Below, piece by piece: positions 8,356-40,100 of a stretch of 48,362 nt of DNA. Source of the DNA: Nitrospiraceae bacterium (lineage in GTDB: Bacteria > Nitrospirota > Nitrospiria > Nitrospirales > Nitrospiraceae); contig CAKKRK010000043.1 in NCBI GenBank assembly GCA_919902665.1, forward strand, positions 1 to 48,362, read 5' to 3'. The translations under genes were made by a program, and so were the position numbers. Positions within the stretch are counted from its first letter, which is position 1; each line of letters begins with the position of its first letter. The notes beneath the pieces are model-generated. The model searched no databases. It worked only from the letters and a program-made list of their open reading frames with translations, and was not told the origin of the DNA.

Positions 8356-8769
8356 CTGCATTCACTGAATATCCCCAGTGAAGCTGGCTGGGTTCCCGAG
8401 AAAAGCCCAACCGATTCCTGCCGTGTAAGCAGCGACCGATATTGTCCGCAATCTTGTCCAACCGACTTCGATCGGTGCTCTCGTCTCTTGTGGCTAGATC
8501 GCTCCCAGCGAAATACAAAAGACACAAGCACCCGGTGCTACATGGCGCTCCAATTGCCCCTTCATGCCCCAATTTCATGATCAGCACTGTCTAGGCAAGT
8601 AGACAGCCTAACGTTTTGTATTTATTAACATTGAGTGGTTTTGGCGTAGCCGCTGGTTCATCCTGTAGAAAAATTCCCCACAAACGAACGATGAGTTTCC
8701 TCTATCTGAATCGTTCTAACAATCTGTTATGACGAGATATTTCCCATTCATGCTGTTCGTTGCCGTTTT
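8356..8769. other. Non-coding stretch between the MutL operon and the MCO1 promoter
   Basis: I see no convincing gene here on either strand. A stem-loop at 8587-8606 (CTGTCTA, loop of 6, TAGACAG), followed by a T-rich run, may be a weak terminator. A loose partial match to the enhancer dyad found upstream of MCO2 occurs at 8542-8563, agreeing at 12 of 17 defined positions, which is not convincing. Confidence 0.5.
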
Positions 8770-8787
8770 TCGGCACAGCGATTGCTG
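8770..8787 (+). promoter_or_regulatory. Sigma54 (-24/-12) promoter for MCO1
   Basis: The sequence CGGCACAGCGATTGCT has GG at 8772-8773 and GC at 8784-8785, exactly 10 bp apart. The flanks GGCAC and TTGCT match the sigma54 consensus (TGGCAC-N5-TTGCW) nearly perfectly. The start site would be near 8797, giving a leader of almost 390 nt before the MCO1 ATG. An NtrC-type activator that could serve it is encoded at 27227-28636. Confidence 0.65.
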
Positions 8788-8883
8788 ACAATAATTGTCG
8801 CTGGTGAAGGTTGGGGTGATTTTGGACCGGCCTCCGAATGACCCATTCCTTCGCAAGAAGGAGCCCTTCACCAGCTCTTTATC

Positions 8884-15266: not shown

Positions 15267-16241
15267 ATGGTCGGATTGAGACAGGCTGAGGGGCAGGCGC
15301 CATCACTCGTCGATCTCATGCGATACTCAGGGATTATTGTCTTGTGTGGCCTGCTGGGGCTTATGGTAACCTCGGCCAGGGCTGATCACGAAAGCTCCAA
15401 GCAGCCCCCGCTGTGGACTCCACAAGATGAAGCGGAGCGGTTGGGGGCGATGGAGGTGCCGGGTGGAATGGTACTGGTTCCGGCAGGATCGTTTCTTATG
15501 GGGAGTGATCCTCGAAAGGACCGTGCCGCCGGTCCGCAGGAACAGCCACAGCACCAAGTCTATCTTGACACCTTCAAGATCGACCGGTTCGAGGTGGCGA
15601 ACGTTGAGTATCTCCGATTCGTGCTTGGGACGGGAGTCGCCTGGCCAAAATTCTGGCGAGAGAATCCCTTTCCGGAAAAGGCTGCCCTCCATCCCGTGAT
15701 TAACGTGAGCTGGTATGAGGCCGACGCCTTTTGTCGGTGGGCCGGGAAACGGCTTCCCACAGAAGCTGAATGGGAGAAGGCAGCACGTGGGGTGGACGGT
15801 CGGATTTTTCCCTGGGGCAGCGAGCCGGCCGGTTGGATCAAGAGTAATATCGCCCACGCTGGGTCGAAGCGCGGATTCAAGTACCCTCCGCTCGCCAATA
15901 TTAATCGCTATGACAAAGGCACTAGCCCGTATGGCGTCTATCAAATGGCGGGTAATGTCAGCGAATGGGTGTCGGATTGGTTTGATCCTGAGTACTATCG
16001 GCGAGGTCAGGACAAAAATCCGCTAGGGCCCAAGAGTGGAGAACTCAAGGTTTTTCGTGGAGGATCATGGAATGAAGATCCGGAGGTTGCCCGTTCCGCA
16101 GGCCGCAATGCCGGTCCACCGGATCGAGAAAGTTATCTGACAGGATTTCGCTGTGCGAAGTCCGGAGACGATGGAAATAGTGAAGCATCGAATATCGGTC
16201 GAGAGGGTACCGCACCGACAGTGATGCGGTTCTCAGAATGA
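15267..16241 (+). CDS. SUMF1/FGE-fold exported protein, catalytic Cys missing
   Basis: This 324-residue protein is of the formylglycine-generating-enzyme (FGE-sulfatase/SUMF1) family, related to NirV and PvdO. The start may instead be ATG 15318, directly at the signal-like segment (IIVLCGLLGLMVTSARA). Family marks are GGMVLVPAGSFLMGSD, RLPTEAEWEKAARG, NVSEWVSDWFDPEYY and FRGGSWNEDP. True FGE has two cysteines after GGSW that bind Cu(I); here that region has none, so aldehyde formation is unlikely. NirV-type proteins are known next to copper nitrite reductase genes. It lies 3 nt after Cup1, so it is co-transcribed. Confidence 0.8.
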   Translation: MVGLRQAEGQAPSLVDLMRYSGIIVLCGLLGLMVTSARADHESSKQPPLWTPQDEAERLGAMEVPGGMVLVPAGSFLMGSDPRKDRAAGPQEQPQHQVYLDTFKIDRFEVANVEYLRFVLGTGVAWPKFWRENPFPEKAALHPVINVSWYEADAFCRWAGKRLPTEAEWEKAARGVDGRIFPWGSEPAGWIKSNIAHAGSKRGFKYPPLANINRYDKGTSPYGVYQMAGNVSEWVSDWFDPEYYRRGQDKNPLGPKSGELKVFRGGSWNEDPEVARSAGRNAGPPDRESYLTGFRCAKSGDDGNSEASNIGREGTAPTVMRFSE

Positions 16242-16292: not shown

Positions 16293-17276
16293 ATGAGGGG
16301 AGCAAGAGGAAGATCATGGCGTATGGCTGGCTGGACCGTCATCACGCTCGGCGTCATAACAGCGATGGCTCACGTCGCATGGGGCTTGGATACGCAAGAT
16401 ATCACGGTAGAGTGGACGGAAGCTGGGAAGAAGCTGGCCGTGGAACGTGTGGCCAACTGGAAGACGAAAGAGGAAATGATCTTGGTGCCAGCGGGGGAGT
16501 TCTTGATGGGCAGTGACAAGAAGACAGACCGACTGGCCTATCGAGGGGAGATTCCGCAACGACGCGTGTATCTCGACGCCTTTCAAATTGATAAGTACGA
16601 AGTCACAAATCTTCAGTATCTGAAATTCATTCTCGCGACCGGGCGCAATCCCCAGTTGGACTGGCGCTACGACGGTGGAAATTTCCAAGAAGCGATGGCT
16701 CACCATCCGATCATGCATGTGACGTGGCACGACGCCGACGCGTATTGCAAGTGGGTGGGCCAGCGGCTACCGACCGAGGCGGAATGGGAAAAGGCGGCGC
16801 GGGGCGAAGACGGACGAATGAATCCCTGGGGGAAGGAATCCGCAGGATTGAGCCGAGCGAACTTCGGAAGGACTGGGCTTTCGGGACCCGTGCGGGACCG
16901 GCCTGAGAGGTCGTTGATGTATCCACCGATCATCGCAGTCGATAAGTATGACAACTCCGTGAGCCCCTATGGCCTGCATCAAACAATGGGGAATGTGGCT
17001 GAGTGGGTATCCGACTGGTATGACCAGGACTACTACAAGACGGCGCCGGATCGAAATCCTCGAGGGCCGGAAACTGGGACGCAAAAGGCGTTTCGCGGCG
17101 GCGGTTGGATGGACAGCACCACGACGATGAGGGTCGCGATGCGGAATGGAACTGATCCGAATACCAGAATCAATTGGCTGGGATTTCGTTGCGCGAAGTC
17201 GGTGTCTGGCGATCAATCATCGAGCAGCGTCTCTCACATGCCAGGTGAGTCGTCGACTTTTGAGGCAAAACACTGA
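16293..17276 (+). CDS. SUMF1/FGE-fold exported protein, second copy
   Basis: This 327-residue paralog of the preceding gene has AAAGGAGA upstream of the start and a signal segment (WTVITLGVITAMAHVAWG). Family marks are MILVPAGEFLMGSD, RLPTEAEWEKAARG, NVAEWVSDWYDQDYY and FRGGGWMDS. The Cys pair of active FGE is again missing; the only cysteine in the C-terminal part is that of GFRCAKS. Two neighbouring copies suggest tandem duplication. The role may be protein binding or assembly of the oxidase or cupredoxin. This is inferred from position only. Confidence 0.8.
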   Translation: MRGARGRSWRMAGWTVITLGVITAMAHVAWGLDTQDITVEWTEAGKKLAVERVANWKTKEEMILVPAGEFLMGSDKKTDRLAYRGEIPQRRVYLDAFQIDKYEVTNLQYLKFILATGRNPQLDWRYDGGNFQEAMAHHPIMHVTWHDADAYCKWVGQRLPTEAEWEKAARGEDGRMNPWGKESAGLSRANFGRTGLSGPVRDRPERSLMYPPIIAVDKYDNSVSPYGLHQTMGNVAEWVSDWYDQDYYKTAPDRNPRGPETGTQKAFRGGGWMDSTTTMRVAMRNGTDPNTRINWLGFRCAKSVSGDQSSSSVSHMPGESSTFEAKH

Positions 17277-25217: not shown

Positions 25218-27254
25218 ATGAAAATCGGGACGATTCGTGCTCGAATCATGCTGGCGATCGTACTGGTGGGATGTATCCCGCTTCTGATCGGGCTCGTTCT
25301 TGCCTATGTCTCCGGCATGCGCTCGCTTAGCGATGTGATCGGTGGAAATCTTCAGGCGGTGGCCATCCAAGCAGCCGATCGGGTAACGATGTTGGTTCAG
25401 GCTGAGGTACAAAGTGTCAGGCTGCTCGGGTCCGCGCCGTTGCGTGTCCGCCAGCCTGTCGAGGCGGTCAATCGATCGTATCCGATGGACCTCGACATAG
25501 TCCAACGCATGATCTCGGAGCGCATGCAGGTTTGGGAAAAGGGCGTGGAAGGTGCAGAGCGCCTCATGGACGCCGAACTCTCCAAGTTTCTTTTGGAAAC
25601 AAAGGTTCGTGGAGGGGATAAGGTTGTCGGCTTGCTCATCGTGGATCAATATGGGGGGGTGGTTGCAGCAAGTTCCGACCCGAACCACTACTTTTGGGGA
25701 GATGAATCATGGTGGAAAGCGCTCCAAACGGGTAACGGCGACCAAGTGTACATCAGCGGAATGATTCCAGCACATGAAGGGTCGTTTCGGACTTCTGAGG
25801 AGACGATCGATATTGCGGTACCTATTCTTGACGACCGCCAGCGCGCCGTCATTGGAGCCGTCAAAGCATCATACCGATTCGATATACTCTTTGCCATGAT
25901 CAAACAGATCCACATCGGGCAAACCGGCCATGCGATGCTGTTCGATGATGCAGGAAATCCCCTCGTCTGTCCGATCCTGCCCAGGCAGGCGCATCGGATC
26001 CCCGGCCAGCTCATGGCGATGATCGTGTCGTCAGAGCCTGGGTGGGGGATTGCAACGGATGATGGACATGGCGAGACGGATACTGTCGTCGGCTACGCAC
26101 CTGTTTCTCAGCTGAAGATACCGGAGAATCCATGGCATGTCTTTGTGCGCCAGCAACCGGCGGAGAGTTATGCGCCGATTCGAGATCAATTGCGGAATCT
26201 GGCGATGATCGGCTTGGTCATGCTGGGACTCCTATGGGCGATCGGGCGGTATGTCGCCGCGCGCATTGCACGTCCTATTCAAATTCTCCAGAGCGGCGTC
26301 GAGGCGATCAGCCAAGGCACTTATGACCGTCCCCTGAACATCCAGACCGGCGATGAGTTTGAAGAATTGGCTGCCGCTGTGCATCGCATGGCCGACCGGC
26401 TGATGGCCTCCCGGAGCGAGCTCGAAGGGCTCAATAGGGACCTGGCCCGCCGTGTGGAGGAAAAGACCCAAGAGGTTACCAGGCACATGCGAAGCTTGGA
26501 ATTAGCTGAACGCCTGGCCACTCTGGGCAAAGTAGCCAGCGGGATTGCGCACGAAGTCAATAATCCTCTGGGGATCATTTTGAATCGTATTGAATGCATG
26601 GAGGCTGATGCGGCACGGTCGCCGATCCCGGCTGAAGTGCGCCGCGATCTTCTCGCGGTCAAGACTCAAGCGGAGCGCATTTCGAGGGTGACGAAAAGTA
26701 TTTTGGCTTTCTCACGAGGATCGGTATCGACCTTAAAGCCTGTCGATGTCAATTGTGTCGTGCGCTCGTGCGTCGGCATCGCCGGTGAACGGGTGTCTGC
26801 TCTTTCCGTGGGACTTGAATCCAGGCTTGCCCCATTACTCCCTCCTATCATGGGCGATCGCGATCGATTAGAGACGGTCATTCTCAATCTGATCAACAAC
26901 GGGATCGATGCGGTGAGCCCCCTGGGGACGGGTGGCGTCGTGACGGTTCGAACGAGATCCATACAGATGGACGGAAGGCTCGGGGTCGAAGTGATAGTGT
27001 CCGACAACGGACCCGGTATCCCGAGCGAGATCATTGGGCGGGTCTTTGACCCATTTTTCAGCACAAAACCGGCGGGACAGGGAACCGGGCTGGGCTTATT
27101 TCTGGCTTACGGGATCGTCGCAGACCACCGGGGGCGGATTGAGGTCAAGAACGGAGAGACCGGGGCGCTGTTCTCGGTTGCCTTGCCGGCGGTAGGGTGC
27201 GGCGCGTCGGTCGAAGAAGAGGGAATATGGGAATCGCAGGCAAAATTCTCATAG
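25218..27254 (+). CDS. Membrane sensor histidine kinase (Cache-HAMP-HisKA-HATPase)
   Basis: This 678-residue protein has a membrane helix at about 10-32 and a long periplasmic region of about 280 residues that reads like a dCache sensor (VDQYGGVVAASSDP, DESWWKAL, IHIGQTGHAMLFDDAGNP). A second helix follows (LAMIGLVMLGLLWAIGRYVAA), then HAMP, coiled coil and an H-box with His445 (GIAHEVNNPLG). The N box (LNLINNGIDAV), G1 (SDNGPGIP), F (FDPFFSTK) and G2 (GQGTGLGLFLAYG) boxes are all intact. The layout fits NtrB-like partners of sigma54 activators. The gene overlaps the response regulator by 28 nt. The ligand is unknown; copper, a substrate or envelope stress are options. Confidence 0.9.
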   Translation: MKIGTIRARIMLAIVLVGCIPLLIGLVLAYVSGMRSLSDVIGGNLQAVAIQAADRVTMLVQAEVQSVRLLGSAPLRVRQPVEAVNRSYPMDLDIVQRMISERMQVWEKGVEGAERLMDAELSKFLLETKVRGGDKVVGLLIVDQYGGVVAASSDPNHYFWGDESWWKALQTGNGDQVYISGMIPAHEGSFRTSEETIDIAVPILDDRQRAVIGAVKASYRFDILFAMIKQIHIGQTGHAMLFDDAGNPLVCPILPRQAHRIPGQLMAMIVSSEPGWGIATDDGHGETDTVVGYAPVSQLKIPENPWHVFVRQQPAESYAPIRDQLRNLAMIGLVMLGLLWAIGRYVAARIARPIQILQSGVEAISQGTYDRPLNIQTGDEFEELAAAVHRMADRLMASRSELEGLNRDLARRVEEKTQEVTRHMRSLELAERLATLGKVASGIAHEVNNPLGIILNRIECMEADAARSPIPAEVRRDLLAVKTQAERISRVTKSILAFSRGSVSTLKPVDVNCVVRSCVGIAGERVSALSVGLESRLAPLLPPIMGDRDRLETVILNLINNGIDAVSPLGTGGVVTVRTRSIQMDGRLGVEVIVSDNGPGIPSEIIGRVFDPFFSTKPAGQGTGLGLFLAYGIVADHRGRIEVKNGETGALFSVALPAVGCGASVEEEGIWESQAKFS

Positions 27255-28636
27255 TCGATGATGAGCAAGAGGCTTTGGAAAATTGTCGAAGGATTTTGAC
27301 TCGCGTGCCCTATGACTGCCTGGTGGCTTCCGATCCGAATGACGCGCTCGATATGATGGAGCGGGAACGGCCTGGTCTTGTGTTGACGGATCTGCGGATG
27401 CCCAAGTTGGATGGAATCGAGGTTCTGGCCGCTGCCAAGCGAATGGATCCAGCGGTTCTTGTGGTGCTGTTGACGGCGCATGCGACCGTCGAAACAGCGG
27501 TGACTGCTATGCGGTATGGCGCCTTTGATTACATCATCAAGCCATTCACGAGCGATGAGCTTGTGCAGGTTGCGCGGCGAGCTTTTGAATCCCTGCCGGT
27601 GAGTGCCAGCACTGCTGTTCGTCCTGCCGCGTCGCTGGAACGATCATCTCTGCGCTCGCCGGACGAAGTGATCAAGCTCGTCGGGAACAGTGCCACGATG
27701 AGGGACGTGTTGGCGTTGGTCAATAAAGTGGCACCGACCGATTCAAATATATTGGTGTACGGAGAAAGCGGGACGGGAAAAGAAATGATTGCCCGGTTGA
27801 TTCACGAGTCGAGCTCTCGATCAGATCGCCCATTTGTCCCCGTGGACTGTGTGTCCCTCCAGGATTCCCTCTTGGAAACCGAGCTGTTCGGTCATGAGAA
27901 AGGCGCCTTCACCGGGGCTCATGCCGCAAAGGCCGGTCTCTTTGAGGCGGCGGACGGCGGCACGATTTTCCTCGACGAAGTCAGCGGAATGACCCCGAAT
28001 CTACAAGCTCGGCTGCTCCGTGTTCTGCAAGAGAGGCATGTGCGGCGGGTTGGCGGGACACGGTTCACACCGCTGAATGTCCGTGTCATCGCGGCCTCCA
28101 ATCAAGATCTTGAAGGGCTGTGTAAGCGGGGGACCTTCCGCGAAGATCTCTACTATCGGCTGAACGTCATTCCTCTAACCCTTCCCCCTCTCAGAGCCCG
28201 CGGGGAGGATATTCTCCTACTGGCCAACGAGTTTCTGACCCGGTTTGCGCAGCGGGTTCGAGCTGAGCTCAGCACGGTTCCGACGATCGATCCTTCGGCT
28301 GCAGATCTCCTGATGCGGTATGCCTGGCCTGGCAACGTAAGGGAGCTCCAAAATGTCATGGAAAGGGCCGCTGTGTTGGTCGACGGGGCCACTGTTACAA
28401 GTGCACAGTTACCGGAGCGGTTCCTCTCGTTGGCCGATAGAGACTCATTGCAATCCGAATCAAGTTCATTCAAGCAAGCGAAACAGCAAGCGGTAGAATC
28501 CTTCGAGCGGGGTTTTCTGGTCGATCTCCTCAAACGCAACGATGGGCATATGGGGAGGGCGGCGCGTGAAGCCGGTGTGGATCGCAAGACGATCGAGCGC
28601 ATGGTGAAGAAGCACGGCCTGCGTGGGTCGTTCTAA
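27227..28636 (+). CDS. NtrC-family sigma54-dependent response regulator
   Basis: This 469-residue protein is read from ATG 27227 (GAAGAGGGAAT upstream). The receiver domain has an acidic pocket (LIVDDE) and the phosphorylation site Asp55 (VLTDLRMPK). The AAA+ domain has Walker A GESGTGKE (179-186), the sigma54-contacting GAFTGA (226-231) and Walker B GGTIFLDEV. A Fis-type helix-turn-helix lies at the C-terminus (GHMGRAAREAGVDRKTIERM). Two matching dyads and a -24/-12 promoter lie just downstream, before MCO2, so MCO2 is a direct candidate target; MCO1 also has a sigma54 promoter. Confidence 0.93.
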   Translation: MGIAGKILIVDDEQEALENCRRILTRVPYDCLVASDPNDALDMMERERPGLVLTDLRMPKLDGIEVLAAAKRMDPAVLVVLLTAHATVETAVTAMRYGAFDYIIKPFTSDELVQVARRAFESLPVSASTAVRPAASLERSSLRSPDEVIKLVGNSATMRDVLALVNKVAPTDSNILVYGESGTGKEMIARLIHESSSRSDRPFVPVDCVSLQDSLLETELFGHEKGAFTGAHAAKAGLFEAADGGTIFLDEVSGMTPNLQARLLRVLQERHVRRVGGTRFTPLNVRVIAASNQDLEGLCKRGTFREDLYYRLNVIPLTLPPLRARGEDILLLANEFLTRFAQRVRAELSTVPTIDPSAADLLMRYAWPGNVRELQNVMERAAVLVDGATVTSAQLPERFLSLADRDSLQSESSSFKQAKQQAVESFERGFLVDLLKRNDGHMGRAAREAGVDRKTIERMVKKHGLRGSF

Positions 28637-28666: not shown

Positions 28667-28688
28667 ATGGGGCGGTGCTGTCCCATTC
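28667..28688 (+). promoter_or_regulatory. Enhancer dyad 1 upstream of MCO2
   Basis: This site has the pattern ATGGGGCG-N5-GTCCCATTC, an imperfect inverted repeat (ATGGGGC/GTCCCAT). Its centre lies about 195 bp before the predicted sigma54 start site. The second copy 88 bp downstream is identical in all defined bases and spacing. It is a likely binding site of the response regulator encoded immediately upstream. Confidence 0.65.
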
Positions 28689-28754
28689 AGCGCTTTTTCA
28701 AGCACCATTACTCTCTCCTTCTGAATACAGCGTTTTGGGACCTCCGATGTTTTC

Positions 28755-28776
28755 ATGGGGCGTCCATGTCCCATTC
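28755..28776 (+). promoter_or_regulatory. Enhancer dyad 2 upstream of MCO2
   Basis: This is the second copy of ATGGGGCG-N5-GTCCCATTC; only the five central bases differ from dyad 1. Its centre is about 107 bp before the predicted start site, a usual distance for NtrC-type enhancers. Confidence 0.65.
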
Positions 28777-28846
28777 CGTCAGTGACCGATGGAATGCTCA
28801 GAACGGAATGTCGTTCAATTAACTAGGTCATGAGTGTTTCGAAAAA

Positions 28847-28864
28847 CAGGAATGAGACTTGCTC
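28847..28864 (+). promoter_or_regulatory. Sigma54 (-24/-12) promoter for MCO2
   Basis: GG at 28849-28850 and GC at 28861-28862 are 10 bp apart. The -12 element TTGCT is perfect, while the -24 element (AGGAAT) keeps only the invariant GG. The two dyads upstream strongly support it. Transcription would start near 28873, leaving a leader of about 200 nt. Confidence 0.6.
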
Positions 28865-28911
28865 GTACTGGAAGGAGGGAAACAGGCCGGTATCTCCCAG
28901 TATATTGATCT

Positions 28912-28985
28912 GTCCGATGGGGGAGTGGGAACGGCAGGATTGGCCTCCTCTCGCTTCCTCCGTGATGAGCGGCCCCCCATCGGAC
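28912..28985 (+). promoter_or_regulatory. Long inverted repeat in the MCO2 5' leader
   Basis: GTCCGATGGGGG (28912-28923) and CCCCCATCGGAC (28974-28985) are perfect 12-bp complements separated by 50 nt. In the transcript this would form a very stable stem ahead of the MCO2 ribosome site (about 29054-29063). No T-run follows, so it is not a simple terminator. Confidence 0.5.
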
Positions 28986-29070
28986 TCATAAAAATGGTTA
29001 TGACAACAAGGCTGATCTTTCTTGTGTGCAACATGTGTGTTTCACCGATCTGGGAGAGGAGGCTAAACGT

Positions 29071-32000
29071 ATGGGTATTTCAGTAAGGCATGTATGGCCG
29101 GGGATATTGGGGGTGGCAGCCAGCCTGATAGTGCCCTTGGCAGTGTCGATGGCGTGGGCTGCTGAGCAGCATGGTCACCAGGGCAGCGCGGAGCAGGCGT
29201 CTGCCAAAAAGGTGATCTATCGTGAAGGCGGGTCAGTCCTTCACGACCGCATGATGGAAGAGATCAAGCGGCAGCAGGAATTCATCGGAAAGAAGGGAGG
29301 GTACAGCACGGGCGCCAACAGCCACATGATGCAACAGGGTGTGTTGCTGGTGGCGGATGACCCGGACAAAGTCTCGGTCACCGGCGGGCAGCGGTGTCCG
29401 GCGAATGCGCCTGTCAAGGAATATCATGTCTCGGCGATCAATATCGAAATCACGCTGAGCCGGTTCCTCGATTACTTCCCTGGGTACATGTACGTCCTGA
29501 ACGAAAATCTGGATAAAGCACGAGCCGAGGAGACCGCGAACAAGGAAGCGCGGGAAAAAGAAAACGATCCCGGTGCCCTGTCGAACGGTCTGCAGGGTGA
29601 TGTGATTCAACCGCTCGTCATCCGGGCGAATCAGGGTGACTGCCTCAAGATGACGCTCCATAACCAGATCACCGATGAGCCGACCAACCTCGTCATCAAT
29701 GGGTCGTCGATGGTGGTCTCATCCACCGGGAAACCGGCAACCCCGTCGAATCCGGATACAACCGTGGCGGTTGGCAAACAGCAAAGTTTTGAATGGTACA
29801 TCAAGCCGGACACACAAGAGGGCGCACGGTTTCTCCGGTCGCATGCCTCACGCGAACAGTTCAATCAAGGCTTGATCGGCATGTTGGTCGTCGAGCCACG
29901 TGGCTCACGATATCTGAGTCCATTCGACGGGAAGCCGATGGCGAGCGGCTGGGAAGCCATGATCGAGGATCCGAAGGGGGCGGATTTCCGTGAATTCGCG
30001 ATCTTTTATCATGAGGCAGGAGATGAGGCCTTCCGGATTTTGAACAAGAAGGGTGAGATGCTGCCGCAGCGTGACCCGCATACCGATTCCTATCGTCCTG
30101 GGGCACGGTTGCTGAACTATCGCAGCGAGCCGCACGGCACCCGCATCGAGCTGCAGGCCCACATGGGGTTCTATGGCGACGAGTCCATGGCCTATGGGTC
30201 CTATACGTTCGGCGACCCGGCTACCACCATTCCGCGTTCGTATCTCGGCGATCCGGCCAAGTTCCGGATGGCGGGTGGCTCAGAGATCGTGCATTCGCAT
30301 CACCTCCATGGTGGGTCCATTCGCTGGGCACGCCAGCCGGGGAACAGCAACCTGGACTTCGCGGCCTCCAGTAATGGTCCGGTGAAGTTTCCGCTTATCA
30401 GCGATACCTCGGATCGTCTCGACGTGCAGTCCATTGGGCCGACAGAGATCTATGATCAGGTGATCGAGGGCGGTTCAGGAGGATTGCAGGCATTGGCCGG
30501 CGAGTTTGTATTCCATTGCCACATTCCGCAGCATTATGTGACGGGCATGTGGGGATTCTGGCGGGTGTACAACACCCTGCAAGCGCCAGGGTTCCAGACC
30601 GATGTGATGAAACCTCTGGTTGAGTTGCCGGATCGCGCCGGCCGTATGAGGACCGGTGTCGCAAGCGATAAGCTCGTGGGCACGATGGTCGATTGGTACG
30701 GTGGCAAGAAATTCGAGATCACCAAGGACCAGACGGATTGGAAAGCCAATCCAGCCAAGGTCTCCATCAAGGATTGGGTTGAGATGCAGGTGCCGCCGCA
30801 GGGCAAGCCAGGGCACAAGAACACGGAAAAGGAGCAGACCCTGGCCTATGACTCGACGGTCAATGATTGGGCCTGGGATGGTACGAAAGCTCTCACAGAA
30901 CCTGAAACGTCGTACGAATGGGTAAACTATAAATCGACGACCCCTGGAAAGCGGCAGGATATTCTCTTCGATCCACGAAGTGGAAAGCTGTCGTGGCCGT
31001 GGCTACGGCCGCATCTGGGCCGACGAGTGCCATTCTCTCCGAGCCATAGCGGGGCGCCGTGGTTGGAGCCGATCCACCGGCGTGACGATGGCAGCAATTC
31101 AACCGAGCCTTCCAAGCCGGGCGAGAACGGACCCTGGAGCCTCTGTCCGGAAGGCGCGCCGCTCAAGAAATTCAATATCCATGCGATCACCTTGCCGATT
31201 ACCTTGAAGGGGGCGACGGCCAAGACGCCGGCGATCGTCGATCCGGACGGCTTGCTCTATGTGTTGCATGAAGAGGAAGCTGAGGTCCGAAAGAATCGAG
31301 CGAAGCAGTTTCCGCTGGTCATTCGCGGAAACGTGCAGGACTGCGTTGACGTCGTCTATAAGAGCGAGCTGAAAGATGATGCACGGCAAGGGTTCTCCAG
31401 CAAGACGAACCTGCATCCGCACATGTTCCAGTTCGATACGCAAGCCTCCGACGGTCCGATCATCGGCTTCTCGTATGAGATGTCGCTCCGGCCATTCACG
31501 ATTTTGAAGAACGAACATCCGGGGAAGGGCATGCCAGTCCCGATGAACACCACGATCGAGGCCGATGCCGCCAAGGGGGCGACCAGCATCAAGGTCAAGG
31601 ATGCGTCAAAGTTCCACGTCAAGACAGAGCTGGGCGTGGGGATGGATGAAGTGAATGGATTTGAGTCAGCCCGTATCAGCAAGATCGACGGCAATACGAT
31701 CACCTTCGAACGGCCACTGATGCATGCCCATAAGAAGGGCGAGATCGCATCGGTCGAATGGATCCGTGAACGTTGGTATGTGGACGCCGATTTCGGCACC
31801 ACGTTCTGGCATGACCATGTGTATGGACTCGATTCGTGGGGGCACGGGCAGTATGCCTCATTCATCACGGAGCCGCCGCGATCGACCTATCATGATCCAG
31901 TCACGGGGAAGGAAATCAGGAGCGGCCCCGTTGCAGACATTCACACGACCGAACCGGTGTCTGCCCATATCAGGGGGTCTTTCCGTGAGATCGTGACACA

Positions 32001-33810
32001 TGTCATGGATTCCAACCCTCGGGCGGCAGAATTGATTACGGCCGACAATCCACAGGCGAGGGTCAATGCGATATCTGTGGATGGGACGCCTTCGGCGGTC
32101 TATCCAGCCAGATTGAACCTCTCGCCGATGAAGTTCTTGAACGGCGGCGAGGCCACGACCGGTGGCGGGTACAACATGCGGATAGAGCCTTTGTCTGTCC
32201 GCTTAGCAAACAACCCCGATCCGTCGCAGTTGTTCAGCAGCCGGATCCACGGAGATCCTGATACGCTGATGTTGCGGGCCTATCTGGGCGATCCAGTGGT
32301 GGTCAGGCTGCTTGAAACGTCAGCCAACGAAGTGCATTCCTGGCACATCAGCGGCCACTGGTTCCCGATGGAGCGGTATAGCAAGAACTCCATCCCACGG
32401 AGCTCGCTGCACGTGGTGATCGGGGAACGGTACGATGCGGCCATTCCGGCCGCCGGCGGACCGCAACAGATGGCAGGCGACTACCTGTACTATAGTGGTC
32501 GGGCGTCGCACTTCGTCGAAGGCAGCTGGGGAATTTTCCGAGTCCTCGACAAACCGGAGACGACGCTGAAGCCGCTCCCTGGGCGCAGCGAGATTCCGCA
32601 GTCAGCCAAGTCAGTCTGTCCAGCGGACGCACCAATGAAGAGCTTCAACGTCTCGGCCATCGACAAGGCGATTCGCTACAACAAGGGCACGCCAGGCACG
32701 ATGGAAGTCGACCTGGAGCGTAAGATGGTGCTGAGCAACGAGACCGGGAAGATGTATGTGCTCGAAGGCGAAAAGACCAAAGTCACGTCGGGCAACCTTG
32801 AGCCGAGCCCGTTGACGCTGCACGTCAACGTCGGTGACTGCATCAAGGTGAATCTCAAGAATGAAATGGTGAAAGAGCGAGCTGGGTTTCACGTGGACAA
32901 CCTGGCGTATGATCCCAAAGAGTCCATGGGCATCAACGCCGGTAACAATCCTGGCGATCAGACGATCGCGCCGGGCCAGAGTAAAACCTATACGTTCTAC
33001 GCCCATCCGGAGTTCGGGGAGAACGCAGCCCTGATTCAGGATTGGGGGAACGTCATCGAGAATCCGCGGAACGGACTCTTTGGTGCCGTCATCATCGGTC
33101 CGAAGGGATCGCAGTATCGCGATCCGGTGACCGGCGAGGATGTGGCCCAGAAGAGCTCGTGGAGGGCGGATGTGATTGTCGATCTGACTGTATCAGGAAA
33201 CGAAAAACGGCAGAACTACCGCTCGTTTACGCTCCTGTTCCAGGACGAAGATAACCAAACCGGCACCAGCTTCATGCCGTATATCCAAAAGGTGGCCGGC
33301 GTGACGGCGGTGAACTACCGATCGGAGCCGACCGATTACCGCACCGAGAAGGGCTGTGCCTACAGCGAAGTGTTCGCCTGTGTGAAGACGGGTGACCAGC
33401 CAGTGACGCCGACGATCGCCGCGCACGTCGGAGATTCGGTGGTCATTCATGTCCTGGGCGCCTTCAGCGAACAGGTGCAACTCTTCAGCGTGTCGGGTCA
33501 TGAATGGAAGCACGAACCGTACATCAGCGGAGCAGACCTCGTGAGCACCATGGAATTCGGTGGGTCCGAAGTCATCAATGCCTGGTTGCACGGTGGAGCC
33601 GGCGGACCGAACGGGATTCCCGGTGACTATCTCTGGCTCAATCAGCGTCCAGGCTATCTCGATGCCGGACATTGGGGAATGCTGAAGGTTCTGGATCGTG
33701 ACAGCCGTGCCATCCTTCCGCTGAGTGGTAAAGCCCCGGCCACACAACAAGCCGAGGGTAAGTCCTCAGCAAAATCCCACCCGGTGTCTATGAAGGCGAA
33801 GGCCAAGTAG
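29071..33810 (+). CDS. Giant multicopper oxidase MCO2
   Basis: This 1,579-residue protein is read from ATG 29071 with GGAGAGGAGG upstream. The signal peptide is GILGVAASLIVPLAVSMAWA. Copper motifs are HSHHLH (408-413), HCHIPQHYVTGMWG (from 482), HPHMFQFD (from 782), WHDH (H914, H916) and HSWHISGH (from 1089). It is much closer to MCO3 than to MCO1. Where MCO3 has HSHASR at 258, MCO2 reads RSHASR, so the first His of that pair is lost. The three internal CP-x-x-AP units and a basic C-terminal tail are present. It is probably a periplasmic or surface oxidase under sigma54 control. The substrate is unknown. Confidence 0.87.
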   Translation: MGISVRHVWPGILGVAASLIVPLAVSMAWAAEQHGHQGSAEQASAKKVIYREGGSVLHDRMMEEIKRQQEFIGKKGGYSTGANSHMMQQGVLLVADDPDKVSVTGGQRCPANAPVKEYHVSAINIEITLSRFLDYFPGYMYVLNENLDKARAEETANKEAREKENDPGALSNGLQGDVIQPLVIRANQGDCLKMTLHNQITDEPTNLVINGSSMVVSSTGKPATPSNPDTTVAVGKQQSFEWYIKPDTQEGARFLRSHASREQFNQGLIGMLVVEPRGSRYLSPFDGKPMASGWEAMIEDPKGADFREFAIFYHEAGDEAFRILNKKGEMLPQRDPHTDSYRPGARLLNYRSEPHGTRIELQAHMGFYGDESMAYGSYTFGDPATTIPRSYLGDPAKFRMAGGSEIVHSHHLHGGSIRWARQPGNSNLDFAASSNGPVKFPLISDTSDRLDVQSIGPTEIYDQVIEGGSGGLQALAGEFVFHCHIPQHYVTGMWGFWRVYNTLQAPGFQTDVMKPLVELPDRAGRMRTGVASDKLVGTMVDWYGGKKFEITKDQTDWKANPAKVSIKDWVEMQVPPQGKPGHKNTEKEQTLAYDSTVNDWAWDGTKALTEPETSYEWVNYKSTTPGKRQDILFDPRSGKLSWPWLRPHLGRRVPFSPSHSGAPWLEPIHRRDDGSNSTEPSKPGENGPWSLCPEGAPLKKFNIHAITLPITLKGATAKTPAIVDPDGLLYVLHEEEAEVRKNRAKQFPLVIRGNVQDCVDVVYKSELKDDARQGFSSKTNLHPHMFQFDTQASDGPIIGFSYEMSLRPFTILKNEHPGKGMPVPMNTTIEADAAKGATSIKVKDASKFHVKTELGVGMDEVNGFESARISKIDGNTITFERPLMHAHKKGEIASVEWIRERWYVDADFGTTFWHDHVYGLDSWGHGQYASFITEPPRSTYHDPVTGKEIRSGPVADIHTTEPVSAHIRGSFREIVTHVMDSNPRAAELITADNPQARVNAISVDGTPSAVYPARLNLSPMKFLNGGEATTGGGYNMRIEPLSVRLANNPDPSQLFSSRIHGDPDTLMLRAYLGDPVVVRLLETSANEVHSWHISGHWFPMERYSKNSIPRSSLHVVIGERYDAAIPAAGGPQQMAGDYLYYSGRASHFVEGSWGIFRVLDKPETTLKPLPGRSEIPQSAKSVCPADAPMKSFNVSAIDKAIRYNKGTPGTMEVDLERKMVLSNETGKMYVLEGEKTKVTSGNLEPSPLTLHVNVGDCIKVNLKNEMVKERAGFHVDNLAYDPKESMGINAGNNPGDQTIAPGQSKTYTFYAHPEFGENAALIQDWGNVIENPRNGLFGAVIIGPKGSQYRDPVTGEDVAQKSSWRADVIVDLTVSGNEKRQNYRSFTLLFQDEDNQTGTSFMPYIQKVAGVTAVNYRSEPTDYRTEKGCAYSEVFACVKTGDQPVTPTIAAHVGDSVVIHVLGAFSEQVQLFSVSGHEWKHEPYISGADLVSTMEFGGSEVINAWLHGGAGGPNGIPGDYLWLNQRPGYLDAGHWGMLKVLDRDSRAILPLSGKAPATQQAEGKSSAKSHPVSMKAKAK

Positions 33811-33929: not shown

Positions 33930-34517
33930 ATGGAACCGCGAGTATCAATTTGTCTGTTCTTGATCGGGCTCCTGTCGATTGCCATCGGTGTTGTACCAGA
34001 GTCAGCTACAGCGCTTGATTTTTCGGCTGAACGGATCGTGAAAAACGGAGCGTCTGTCATCACGGCCCATGTCAACGCTAAGGGCGATCGCTGGCGGTTC
34101 GAGTATGCACAACCCCAAAGGGGGGCCAGTGTCATGATCGTTCGGATGGACAAGAAGCATTCGTGGCTCATCCTCTCGAAGCGCCGGCAGTATCTCGAGA
34201 TCCCGATCGCGGCCGACCATATATTGGCGGTGACGGAGAATATGGACGGAGAGGTCTCGCGCGAGTTGGTGGGTGACGAGACGCTAAACGGTCATCCCAC
34301 GGAACTGTTCGAAGTGACGGTTGCTGAACAGGGGGAGACTCGGCGATACTATCGATGGGTGACCAAGGCCGAGCGGTTTCCACTCAAGACGGTGAGTAAG
34401 CAGGGAAAGTGGTCGGAGGAGTTTCGTCGGGTGATCTTCACCGAACAATCTCCGTTTCTCTTCGAACTTCCACGACGGCTGGATAACGCGAATCCATCCG
34501 CCGATACGCAACCGTAG
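33930..34517 (+). CDS. Exported protein with LolA-like fold, third copy
   Basis: This 195-residue protein has a signal peptide (ICLFLIGLLSIAIGVVPESATA). The body (LDFSAERIVKNGASVI, GDRWRFEYAQP, HSWLILSKRRQYLEIPI, RRYYRWVTKAERFPLKTV) aligns by eye with the minus-strand copy at 22123. A TTGAAC-N17-TAAATA pair (33896-33924) ends only 5 nt before the ATG, so if real it would give a nearly leaderless message. It is followed by Cup3 after about 20 nt and probably forms one transcript with it. Confidence 0.65.
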   Translation: MEPRVSICLFLIGLLSIAIGVVPESATALDFSAERIVKNGASVITAHVNAKGDRWRFEYAQPQRGASVMIVRMDKKHSWLILSKRRQYLEIPIAADHILAVTENMDGEVSRELVGDETLNGHPTELFEVTVAEQGETRRYYRWVTKAERFPLKTVSKQGKWSEEFRRVIFTEQSPFLFELPRRLDNANPSADTQP

Positions 34518-34536
34518 TCGCATGACCGGAGGAAAC

Positions 34537-35310
34537 ATGAGACAGGCGATGATGGGCGCATTATGGGCAGCGGGCTGTATGTCGGTCTTCCTGACAACCG
34601 GACATGGAACCGATGCCGGGGCCTATGAGTCGGCACCTGTGGTGGACGGAGGGACGGTGCGGGGGACGGTCACGTTCAAGGGTCCAGTGCCGGAACCGAA
34701 GGAATTCGAGTTACGCCGCTCCCCGGACCGCGAGTTTTGCGGGGTGTTATCCGATGGCAATGGGCATCGGCTCCTGAAGGAAGTTACGATCGGGTCGGAG
34801 GGGGGGCTCAAGGATGTGGTCGTCCTCGTGGAAGGCATCCAGAAAGGGAAGCCGTTTACCTTCACCGATGCTGAAGTAGAAGCCAGTCTCTGTCAGTTCC
34901 TGCCCTTTGTCACGGTGGTGAGCGACAAGCGCCGCATCACGGTGTTTAATCGAGATCCGGTGTCACACGATATTCAAGGCTATGCGTATGATCAAGCCGG
35001 CGTCGATATCGTCCTTCATCGGCCTGCGCTGCATGTGAGTGGGACCACCGATATCGTGCAGCTGGTCAAGGGGCGAAAAGTGTTTACCATGCAGTGTGGC
35101 ATGCACCCCTACATGCAGAATTGGGGCTATGCAATCGACAATCCCTATTATGCCATCACGGACCCCACTGGTTCGTTTGCCATCGGCGATCTCCCGGCCG
35201 GGACCTATCACATCAAGGCTTGGCATCCGATCCTCGGAAGCCAAGAGCGGGACATTACCGTCAAACCCAATGAGACGGTGTCACTCGATCTGTTGTTTGA
35301 AGCCAAGTGA
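34537..35310 (+). CDS. Exported plastocyanin-like protein Cup3 (short subtype)
   Basis: This 257-residue protein is read from ATG 34537 with GGAGG 5 nt upstream; ATG 34522 lacks a ribosome site. It has GGTVRGTVTFKGPVPEPKE, then DPVSHDIQGYA and MQCGMHPYMQNW, giving His, Cys, His and Met as candidate type 1 copper ligands, and LPAGTYHIKAWHP near the end. It lacks the His-rich insert of Cup1 and Cup2 and is closest to Cup4 (42057). It is a candidate blue-copper partner of MCO2. Confidence 0.75.
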   Translation: MRQAMMGALWAAGCMSVFLTTGHGTDAGAYESAPVVDGGTVRGTVTFKGPVPEPKEFELRRSPDREFCGVLSDGNGHRLLKEVTIGSEGGLKDVVVLVEGIQKGKPFTFTDAEVEASLCQFLPFVTVVSDKRRITVFNRDPVSHDIQGYAYDQAGVDIVLHRPALHVSGTTDIVQLVKGRKVFTMQCGMHPYMQNWGYAIDNPYYAITDPTGSFAIGDLPAGTYHIKAWHPILGSQERDITVKPNETVSLDLLFEAK

Positions 35311-36887: not shown

Positions 36888-37189
36888 ATCTCCCTGTACC
36901 GATAACAGCGGCCAGGAGTCAATAGCCAGAGGGGCCTGCGTCGAGAGGAGCACCATGAATATTACATGAAAGTCTGTCTTGCAATCCCTTATGGGAATCG
37001 ATATATAAGATACGATTTTGATCAAGAAGACTTGCCCAATTCTAAGGCCGGGCATCTATTTTTCTTAATGCCGTTTCTGAATACACCATCATGATGGATG
37101 GATGTCGTGTTGTCCGACCGCAAACTGTGTTGAGGAATGAGATAGGGGTTGATTCATGCCTGACATACTGATGCATGGGGGGGGAACGT
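36888..37189. promoter_or_regulatory. Divergent control region of MCO3 and the SUMF1-like gene
   Basis: On the plus strand TTGCAA (36979-36984) and TATATA (37002-37007) are 17 bp apart, a fair sigma70 promoter for MCO3. A perfect 12-bp palindrome CCATCATGATGG lies at 37086-37097. The only GG-N10-GC (37146-37159) is a poor sigma54 match. No copy of the MCO2 enhancer dyad is seen. A run of eight G residues (37177-37184) serves as the MCO3 ribosome site. Confidence 0.45.
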
Positions 37190-40100
37190 ATGAGTGATTC
37201 AACGAAATGGATGGGGCCGGGAATCTTGGGGTTCGCAGCCAGCCTGATATTGGCTGGTGTGCTGCCGGCTGGTGCGATTATGTCGCACGATGGGCATGTT
37301 GCGCAGGGTGTGACGCAGGATTTGGCGAAGCCAGTCCACGCACAAGCAGGTCCGGCGCTGTTGGACAAAATGTCGAAAGCTGTCGAGCAGGTGGAGCGAC
37401 AGGTCCACTCAAAAGGACCGTTCCAGGGCGCGAGTGCGCACGCGATGCAGCAGGGTGTTCTGCTCGTTGCAGATGATATGGACAAGGTGAAGGTCACGCA
37501 GGGCGGACGATGCCCAGCGCATGCGCCGGTTCGAGCGTATGACGTGACCGCGATGAACGTTGAGATCACCGTCAATCGGTTCGGGGATTTCTATCCTGGC
37601 TTCATGTATGTCCTCACGGAGAATGTCGCCGGAGTGCGTGAAGAAGAGACCAAGAATAGGACTGCGCGGGAGAGCGAAGATCCGACCTTCGCCGAGGGGG
37701 CTATCTCCAACGGGTTGCAAGGAGATCTGATTCAGCCGTTAGTCATTCGGGCCAACCAGGGTGATTGTCTCAGGATCACGCTGCGCAATCAGATTGAGGG
37801 CGAGCCCACGAACATGATCATCAATGGCTCGCAACTGTTGGTTGCCAACAGTGGAAAACCAGCGACGGCCAACAACCCGGAGGCCTTGGTCGCGACAGGG
37901 AAGACCGGCGAGTTCGAATGGTATATCCAGCCGGATACACAAGAAGGCGGACATGCATTTCATAGTCACGCATCCAGAGATCAGTACTCGCTGGGTCTGT
38001 TGGGGTCGCTCGTGGTTGAACCACGTGGATCTCGGTATCTCAGCCCATTTACCGGCGAGGATATGAAGAGCGGCTGGGAAGCCATTATCGATAAGGAAAA
38101 GGGTTCGGACTTTCGAGAATTCGTGATTTTCTATCATGAGGCCGGTGATGAGACATTCCGCCTCTTGAACCGCAAGGGTGACATGTTGCCTCAGCGCGAC
38201 GCCCATACGGACACCTATCGTCCGGCTGCCCGGTTGCTCAACTACCGGAGCGAGCCGCATGGCACGCGTTTGGAGATGCAAGAGCACCTGGTCGGCTTTG
38301 CTGATGAGTCGCAGGGCTATGGATCCTATACATTCGGTGATCCAGCCACGACGATTCCTCGTTCGTACTTGGGTGATCCTGCGACCTTCCGCATGATCGG
38401 TGGATCAGAAATCGTTCATTCGCACCACTTGCACGGTGGGTCGATTCGTTGGGCAAGACAGCCTGGTACCAGTAAGTTGGATCCGACTCTGTCGAAGAAC
38501 GGTCCCGTCAAGTTCCCGATGATCAATGACACCTCTGACCGGTTGGATGTTCAGTCAATCGGACCGTCCGAGATTTATGATGAAGTAATCGAAGGTGGAT
38601 CAGGCGGGTTGCAAGCGTTGGCCGGCGAATTCGTTTTCCATTGCCACATTCCGCAGCACTATGTCACGGGCATGTGGGGATTCTGGCGGGTCTACAACAC
38701 TCTGCAGCAGCCTGGCTTCCAAACCGACGTCATGAAGCCGCTGGTCGAGTTGCCGGATCGGAAGGGCAAGATTAAAGCTGCCATCAGTTCCGATAAGCTG
38801 GTTGGTACCACGGTCGATTGGTATGGGGGAAAGAAGTGGGAAATTACGAAGGATAAGACTGATTGGAAAGCGAGTCCGGTGAAGATCTCCATCAAGGATT
38901 GGGTGGAGTATATGCTGCCTCCGCAGGGGTTACCAGGAAAGACGGAGGATCAAGTTCAGCAAGCTAAGGCAAATGATCCAACGGTTGTAAATTGGAAGTG
39001 GGAAGGGGCATTGGCTCTTAATGAACCAGAGACCCCACACAAGTGGGCCGACTATGTGTCGCCTGCTCCGTTGAAGCGTTTACCAATTACGTTTGATCCA
39101 CAAACGGGTAAGCTCGCATTTCCATGGCTCCGCCCGCACCTTGGGAAGCGTCCGCCCTTCGCGCCGAATCACGGCGGTGCGCCGTGGTTGGAACCGTTCC
39201 ACGTGAGGGAGGACGGCACCAAGAGTACCGAGCCGCCCAGGCCTGGTGAACAAGGCCCATGGAGTCTTTGTCCTGAAAATGCTCCACGGAAGTTCTTCAC
39301 CACTCATTCCATCACCCTGCCGATCACGCTGAAGCCGGCGACGGAAAAGACGGCGGCGGTCGTTGATCCGATCGGCATGATCTATGTGTTGCACGAAGAA
39401 GAGGCGGAAGTTCGTAAGGATCCTAAAAAACAAGTGCCGCTCGTTATTCGTGGCAACGTATATGATTGCGTGGACGTCATCTTCAAGAATGAAATTCCGG
39501 ACGATGCGCGGACCGGTTGGTCGAACAAGATCAATCTCCACCCGCACTTCTTCCAATTCGATACGAGCGCGTCCGATGGTCCGACCATCGGTTTCTCGTA
39601 CGACATGTCTCTCAGAGCCTTCACGATGTTGAAGGATCCACAACCTGACAAAGGTATGCCGTTGCCAGGCAACACTGTCTTGACGGCAGATGTGAAGGCT
39701 GGGGGCCGCAGCATCACCGTTGCAGACACGTCCAAGTTCCATGTGAACATTGAGCTTGGTGTGGGCATGGATGATCCGAAGTTCTTCGAAGTCGTACGTA
39801 TCAAGTCCATCAATGGCAAGACGATCACCTTCGATGCGCCATTGAAGTACGGGCATAAGAAGAATGATATTGCTAGCGTGGAATTTATCCGTGAGCGTTG
39901 GTATGTCGACGTGGACCTCGGTACTGTGTACTGGCATGATCACGTATTTGGAACGGATACATGGGGCCATGGACTCTTCTCAGCATTTATCACTGAGCCA
40001 CCACGGTCGACCTATCATGATCCGGTGACCGGTAAAGAAATCCGGAGCGGTCCCATCGCGGACATTCATACCTTGGAGCCGGTTTCGGCCCACATCCGCG

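Follow-up and report, generated by a model that had tools for sequence, protein, structure and literature searches.

What controls the expression of a giant multicopper oxidase gene that lies directly behind the gene of an NtrC-type regulator? The window, by which we mean the whole 48,362-nucleotide stretch of Nitrospiraceae DNA analysed here, raises this question in the intergenic region between the regulator gene and the oxidase gene MCO2. From sequence comparison we consider it very probable that this region is an enhancer-dependent sigma54 promoter driven by the adjacent kinase-regulator pair, a judgement that leaves aside the role of a leader RNA in the transcript. A search of the open-access literature found no description of the promoter, the dyads or the leader RNA.

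Elements of the regulator-MCO2 region

25218..27254, + strand: sensor histidine kinase, 678 aa, with a dCache_1 periplasmic-type sensor, HAMP, HisKA and HATPase_c domains (Pfam)
27227..28636, + strand: NtrC-type response regulator with a receiver, a sigma54 AAA+ domain with GAFTGA and a probable C-terminal Fis-type HTH (Pfam, NCBIfam)
28667..28686, no strand assigned: enhancer dyad A, ATGGGGCGGTGCTGTCCCAT, candidate regulator site (motif scan and conservation)
28755..28774, no strand assigned: enhancer dyad B, ATGGGGCGTCCATGTCCCAT, candidate regulator site (motif scan and conservation)
28848..28863, + strand: sigma54 -24/-12 element AGGAATGAGACTTGCT, with a predicted start at about 28874
29071..33810, + strand: MCO2, giant multicopper oxidase, 1579 aa (Cu-oxidase_3 and Cu-oxidase_2 above Pfam cut-offs)

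The sequence ATGGGGCG-N5-GTCCCATTC occurs exactly at 28667-28688 and at 28755-28776. The two copies lie 88 bp apart and their five central bases are the sole difference between them, just as the first-pass annotation of this DNA had claimed; dyad A, which it had placed 30 bp past the regulator stop, does begin there, the stop ending at 28636. No third copy with three or fewer mismatches was found in the window, and at the same tolerance shuffled windows gave a mean of 0.23 matches, with 4 of 100 shuffles reaching two. The dyad is better described as the palindrome ATGGGRC-N6-GYCCCAT. Scanning the 3.56-Mb genome with this form returned dyads A and B as the only perfect sites and one site with a single mismatch, inside an open reading frame (C230:7894); with an N5 spacer, used as a spacing control, no perfect site was found genome-wide. 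The dyad had been proposed as a specific motif with which a regulon could be searched. The specificity was borne out by the scan, but a wide regulon was not, and the motif looks to mark essentially one promoter in this genome.

The proposed GG-N10-GC element with a perfect TTGCT, about 72 bp after the second copy, was likewise found in place: the -24 GG is at 28849-28850, 72 bases past the second dyad copy, and TTGCT is at 28859-28863. The element differs from the consensus at 3 of 12 positions, and its -24 part, AGGAATG, is far from TGGCACG. Consensus matches with three or fewer mismatches number 60 in the window against 75 expected, so that the element alone is not significant. We take it as real because it is conserved across loci; by itself it is unremarkable. 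Inspection by eye between dyad B and the -24 GG found no IHF consensus. The genome has one rpoN gene.

The end of the kinase gene overlaps the start of the regulator gene, and in the genus loci examined the regulator likewise has a kinase orthologue in front of it. The annotated activator with an intact GAFTGA is indeed of the NtrC type: the motif is encoded at 27902-27919, the receiver (PF00072, E 2e-28) and the sigma54 AAA+ domain (PF00158, E 1e-67) are intact, and the adjacent kinase has HisKA and HATPase_c. The C-terminal HTH_8 match reaches 20.5 bits, below the Pfam cut-off of 22. The C-terminal helix of the regulator, EAGVDRKTIERMVK, hardly varies among dyad carriers, and none of seven paralogues in this genome has it.

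Conservation of the dyads and the predicted promoter

MCO2-like genes were matched in 78 of 79 genus genomes, and a regulator orthologue (E at most 1e-150) in 20 of the 79. Perfect dyads were present in 14 of the 20 regulator-bearing genomes versus 6 of the 59 others (Fisher p = 7e-7, relatedness ignored). Sixteen regulator loci could be compared as a footprint, in which the dyads lie 88-92 bp apart and the distance from the second dyad to the -24 GG is 92-95 bp. The GG-N8-TTGCT core is 100% identical in all 16, and the dyad arms are 86-92% identical, compared to 31-36% (near chance) for the 40-60 bp flanks and the spacers. Since the motif itself, with up to two mismatches allowed, served to find the dyads of this first set, the conservation of their arms is partly circular; the spacing, the sigma54 conservation and the second set described below are not. 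With GG and TTGCT invariant at a fixed distance in the 16 loci, the -24/-12 element is under selection. Of the regulator genomes outside these loci, in one the region is covered by a run of N (G074), in two the contig ends (G026, G058), and one has a single perfect dyad (G071).

Where the target gene was on the contig, it was MCO2 in the clade of the window (G000, G073, G028, G005) and MCO3 in the others of the first set. In a clade whose regulators are about 60% identical, the pair of dyads is found ahead of MCO3, roughly 3 to 10 kb past the regulator, and a single dyad follows the regulator, before a second NtrC-like gene. This second gene mostly aligns only to regulator residues 1 to about 400 and apparently encodes an activator that lacks a DNA-binding domain. 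In regulator orientation it was seen at L177 5439-6629, L180 5620-6798, L181 5731-6990, L182 5631-6803 and L183 5633-6805.

One genome, G037, has dyads before both MCO2 and MCO3 and only one regulator copy that passed the search threshold, which is consistent with action in trans. Its regulator sits elsewhere in the genome, before MCO3. Upstream of its MCO2 (G037:C92, locus L021) a transposase-like ORF occupies the place of the regulator, and the dyads remain there, one with two mismatches.

For the second set, 20 regulator loci were picked by regulator homology alone; they represent five further genera of the family. Dyads were found in 18 of these, mostly as the same pair, and in most loci with a pair GGAAY-N5-TTGCT follows about 90 bp on and then an MCO gene of the MCO1, MCO3 or MCO2 type. 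The two loci in which no dyads were found are those of G154 and of G169, whose contig stops some 600 bp further downstream; in G150 the dyads are present and no recognisable sigma54 element was found near the MCO3 leader. When MCO3-type leader-RNA loci of other genera were located without use of the dyads, five of six had two dyads upstream, one at shorter spacing. Among 80 far regulator relatives (36-45% identity), collected by a search with the regulator protein, no MCO gene like those of the window was found nearby, and these relatives were of no use for the footprint.

The enhancer-dependent layout read by the first-pass annotation is therefore supported by the elements themselves, their selective conservation, their fixed spacing at 16 loci, the presence of dyads in 18 of 20 second-set loci, the association of the dyads with the regulator family and its HTH (p = 7e-7 for co-occurrence with the regulator, relatedness ignored) and the single rpoN. 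Conceivably, some other protein (a repressor or a second activator) recognises the dyads, and the adjacent regulator acts elsewhere. About two dozen sequences in the genome match the sigma54-activator domain, and the six regulator-less genus genomes have one perfect dyad each. However, the dyads co-occur strongly with the regulator family, as does the HTH of the family with the dyads, and at almost every locus the sites adjoin the regulator; stray sites, at one per ten genomes, are of the order of magnitude that chance would give (about 0.05 per genome by a motif-information estimate). We regard this explanation as very improbable. Still less credible is that the palindromes close the regulator gene as terminators of transcription or as hairpins in its RNA, as dyad A, an inverted repeat shortly past the stop, might suggest: we rejected it because across relatives the dyads lie anywhere from about 20 to 800 bp past the regulator stop but stay 92-95 bp from the -24 GG, which assigns the dyads to the promoter rather than to the regulator end, and moreover no T run follows, there are two copies, and those before MCO2 in G037 have no regulator alongside.

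With the dyads taken as enhancers, the promoter would work as follows. The membrane sensor kinase, through its dCache domain, would respond to a signal and phosphorylate the NtrC-type regulator, which would bind both ATGGGRC-N6-GYCCCAT dyads, whose centres lie at about -197 and -109. DNA looping would then bring the AAA+ ring of the regulator, via GAFTGA, to the sigma54-RNA polymerase at 28848-28863. Transcription is predicted to start near 28874 and to read through the MCO2 operon, and the transcript would carry the leader RNA, which probably tunes translation by competition for the Shine-Dalgarno sequence. The inducing signal may be a metal or redox cue, a guess that we base on the MnxG-like oxidase and on the parallel with Pseudomonas discussed below.

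The leader RNA

28909..28988, + strand: conserved structured leader RNA with closing stem P1 and hairpins P2 and P3 (covariance model R1, 80.1 bits, E 3e-15)
8797..8878, + strand: second leader RNA copy, before MCO1 (covariance model R1, 72.5 bits, E 2e-13)
28943..28952, + strand: candidate anti-Shine-Dalgarno segment GCCUCCUCUC in the leader, a 10-nt perfect complement of 29054-29063
29054..29063, + strand: Shine-Dalgarno region GAGAGGAGGC of MCO2 (from sequence)

Between the predicted start and the MCO2 start codon lies an 80-nt RNA that forms a three-way junction. Searched with the covariance model, this genome shows two copies and no more, one ahead of MCO1 and one ahead of MCO2. In the MCO1/MCO2-type alignment 94.9% of the stem cells pair, with 10 doubly changed pairs, and in the MCO3-type alignment 90.8%, with 11; when the partners were slid as a control, pairing was 38-57%. 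Within the class, 178 of 269 genomes have copies, and in a 395-genome sample of the phylum the leader-bearing genomes, among those listed, are all within the order. Leader matches fetched from other genera precede a giant MCO in 21 of 22 cases. In most leaders of the MCO1/MCO2 type, the position of the sigma54 element predicts a transcription start right at the 5' end of the RNA. No Rfam family matched the leader at threshold; the weak Rfam matches (mir-1231, snoRNAs) were rejected as chance.

The CCUCC segment of the leader, made up of loop and arm, can pair with the ribosome-binding site, over 10 nt in the MCO2 of the window. We see an even chance that the leader adjusts translation by competing for the Shine-Dalgarno sequence. 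We give a slightly less than even chance to a passive role, in which the leader is a stability element in the 5' UTR or a protein-binding site rather than a sensing switch. In favour of passivity, the leader has no known ligand, and its match to the Shine-Dalgarno region is to some extent trivial, as both CCUCC and GGAGG are frequent sequences. On the other side, the P2 core hardly changes in sequence whereas the stems vary and covary, and the core forms longer pairings with the Shine-Dalgarno region that follows it than with those belonging to other leaders (mean 7.6 versus 7.1 nt, 0 of 301 permutations, a test made lenient by the relatedness of the sequences). We tentatively propose, at somewhat under even confidence, that the leader is a new riboswitch class of the order, which would sense a metal ion, a redox compound or a related cofactor and control the translation of giant MCOs. 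If this riboswitch proposal is true, control would have two tiers, with the kinase, regulator and sigma54 acting on transcription and RNA sensing acting on translation.

The oxidases of the window

33930..34517, + strand: gene without a Pfam family, probable operon member, which follows MCO2 in several relatives too
34522..35310, + strand: gene with a carboxypeptidase-regulatory-like domain, probable operon member, which follows MCO genes in many relatives too
8771..8786, + strand: sigma54-type element CGGCACAGCGATTGCT before MCO1 (consensus scan), part of a second promoter-leader arrangement, one without dyads

MCO2 is only a distant relative of MnxG: it scores 117.7 bits against the NCBIfam profile NF041487, the cut-off of which is 3100, and we do not class it as an MnxG manganese oxidase. 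The window has two further giant oxidases, MCO1 (probable start 9184) and MCO3 (start 37175 or 37190). Upstream of the sigma54 element of MCO1, TGTAGAAAAATTCCCCACA occurs at 8664-8682, and a similar form (about GTAGAANAATTCCYCA) lies upstream of MCO2 in many regulator-less genomes; it is a candidate site of another activator. Downstream of MCO1 there are two FGE-sulfatase (formylglycine-generating-enzyme-like) genes in tandem, at 15267-16241 and 16293-17276.

The MCO2 of the window carries an MCO3-type leader and signal peptide, unlike MCO2 in regulator-less genomes (29071-29160 compared to L019 and L032). In the region before the window's MCO3 (36970-37190), no recognisable dyad, leader RNA or sigma54 element was found, unlike MCO3 in most relatives examined. 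Because the MCO3-type leader and signal peptide are at MCO2, while the window's MCO3 is without leader, dyad and sigma54 element, the arrangement suggests that recombination put MCO2 under the regulated promoter, with a swap of promoter and signal peptide.

Relation to known systems

The closest known system is that of Pseudomonas putida GB-1 and its relatives. According to the relevant passages of two reports (PMC11409713, PMC11930936), the MnxS1/MnxS2-MnxR two-component system controls mnxG and mcoA; MnxR is a sigma54-dependent NtrC-type regulator that the multicopper oxidases require in order to oxidise Mn(II); the mnxG and mcoA promoters have predicted sigma54 sites; and an rpoN insertion abolishes Mn oxidation. 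A two-component system, sigma54, an NtrC-type regulator and multicopper oxidase targets are common to both, and the parallel is one of function. Here the regulator gene is directly upstream of the oxidase, two conserved and defined dyads are present, and no IHF site was identified. There is one kinase here, whereas those passages describe two, and they mention no leader RNA.

With NtrC-, AtoC- and ZraR-type systems the regulator shares its receiver, its GAFTGA AAA+ domain and probably its C-terminal HTH, and the promoter shares palindromic sites that come as a pair and precede a -24/-12 element by about 100-200 bp. However, the binding motif and the target differ, and the NCBIfam equivalog matches shown for the regulator are all below their cut-offs (AtoC, 436 of 714 bits). 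The leader resembles riboswitch-like Rfam leaders in its compact three-way junction, its place in the 5' leader of a metalloenzyme mRNA and its possible competition for the Shine-Dalgarno sequence, although it differs from them in having no Rfam family at threshold.

The locus provides a concrete and transferable binding motif, together with a regulator family, for the control of giant MnxG-like oxidases, and it links these oxidases to the sigma54 control known for the Mn oxidases of Pseudomonas. The leader RNA, in turn, is a direct handle on what the oxidases respond to.
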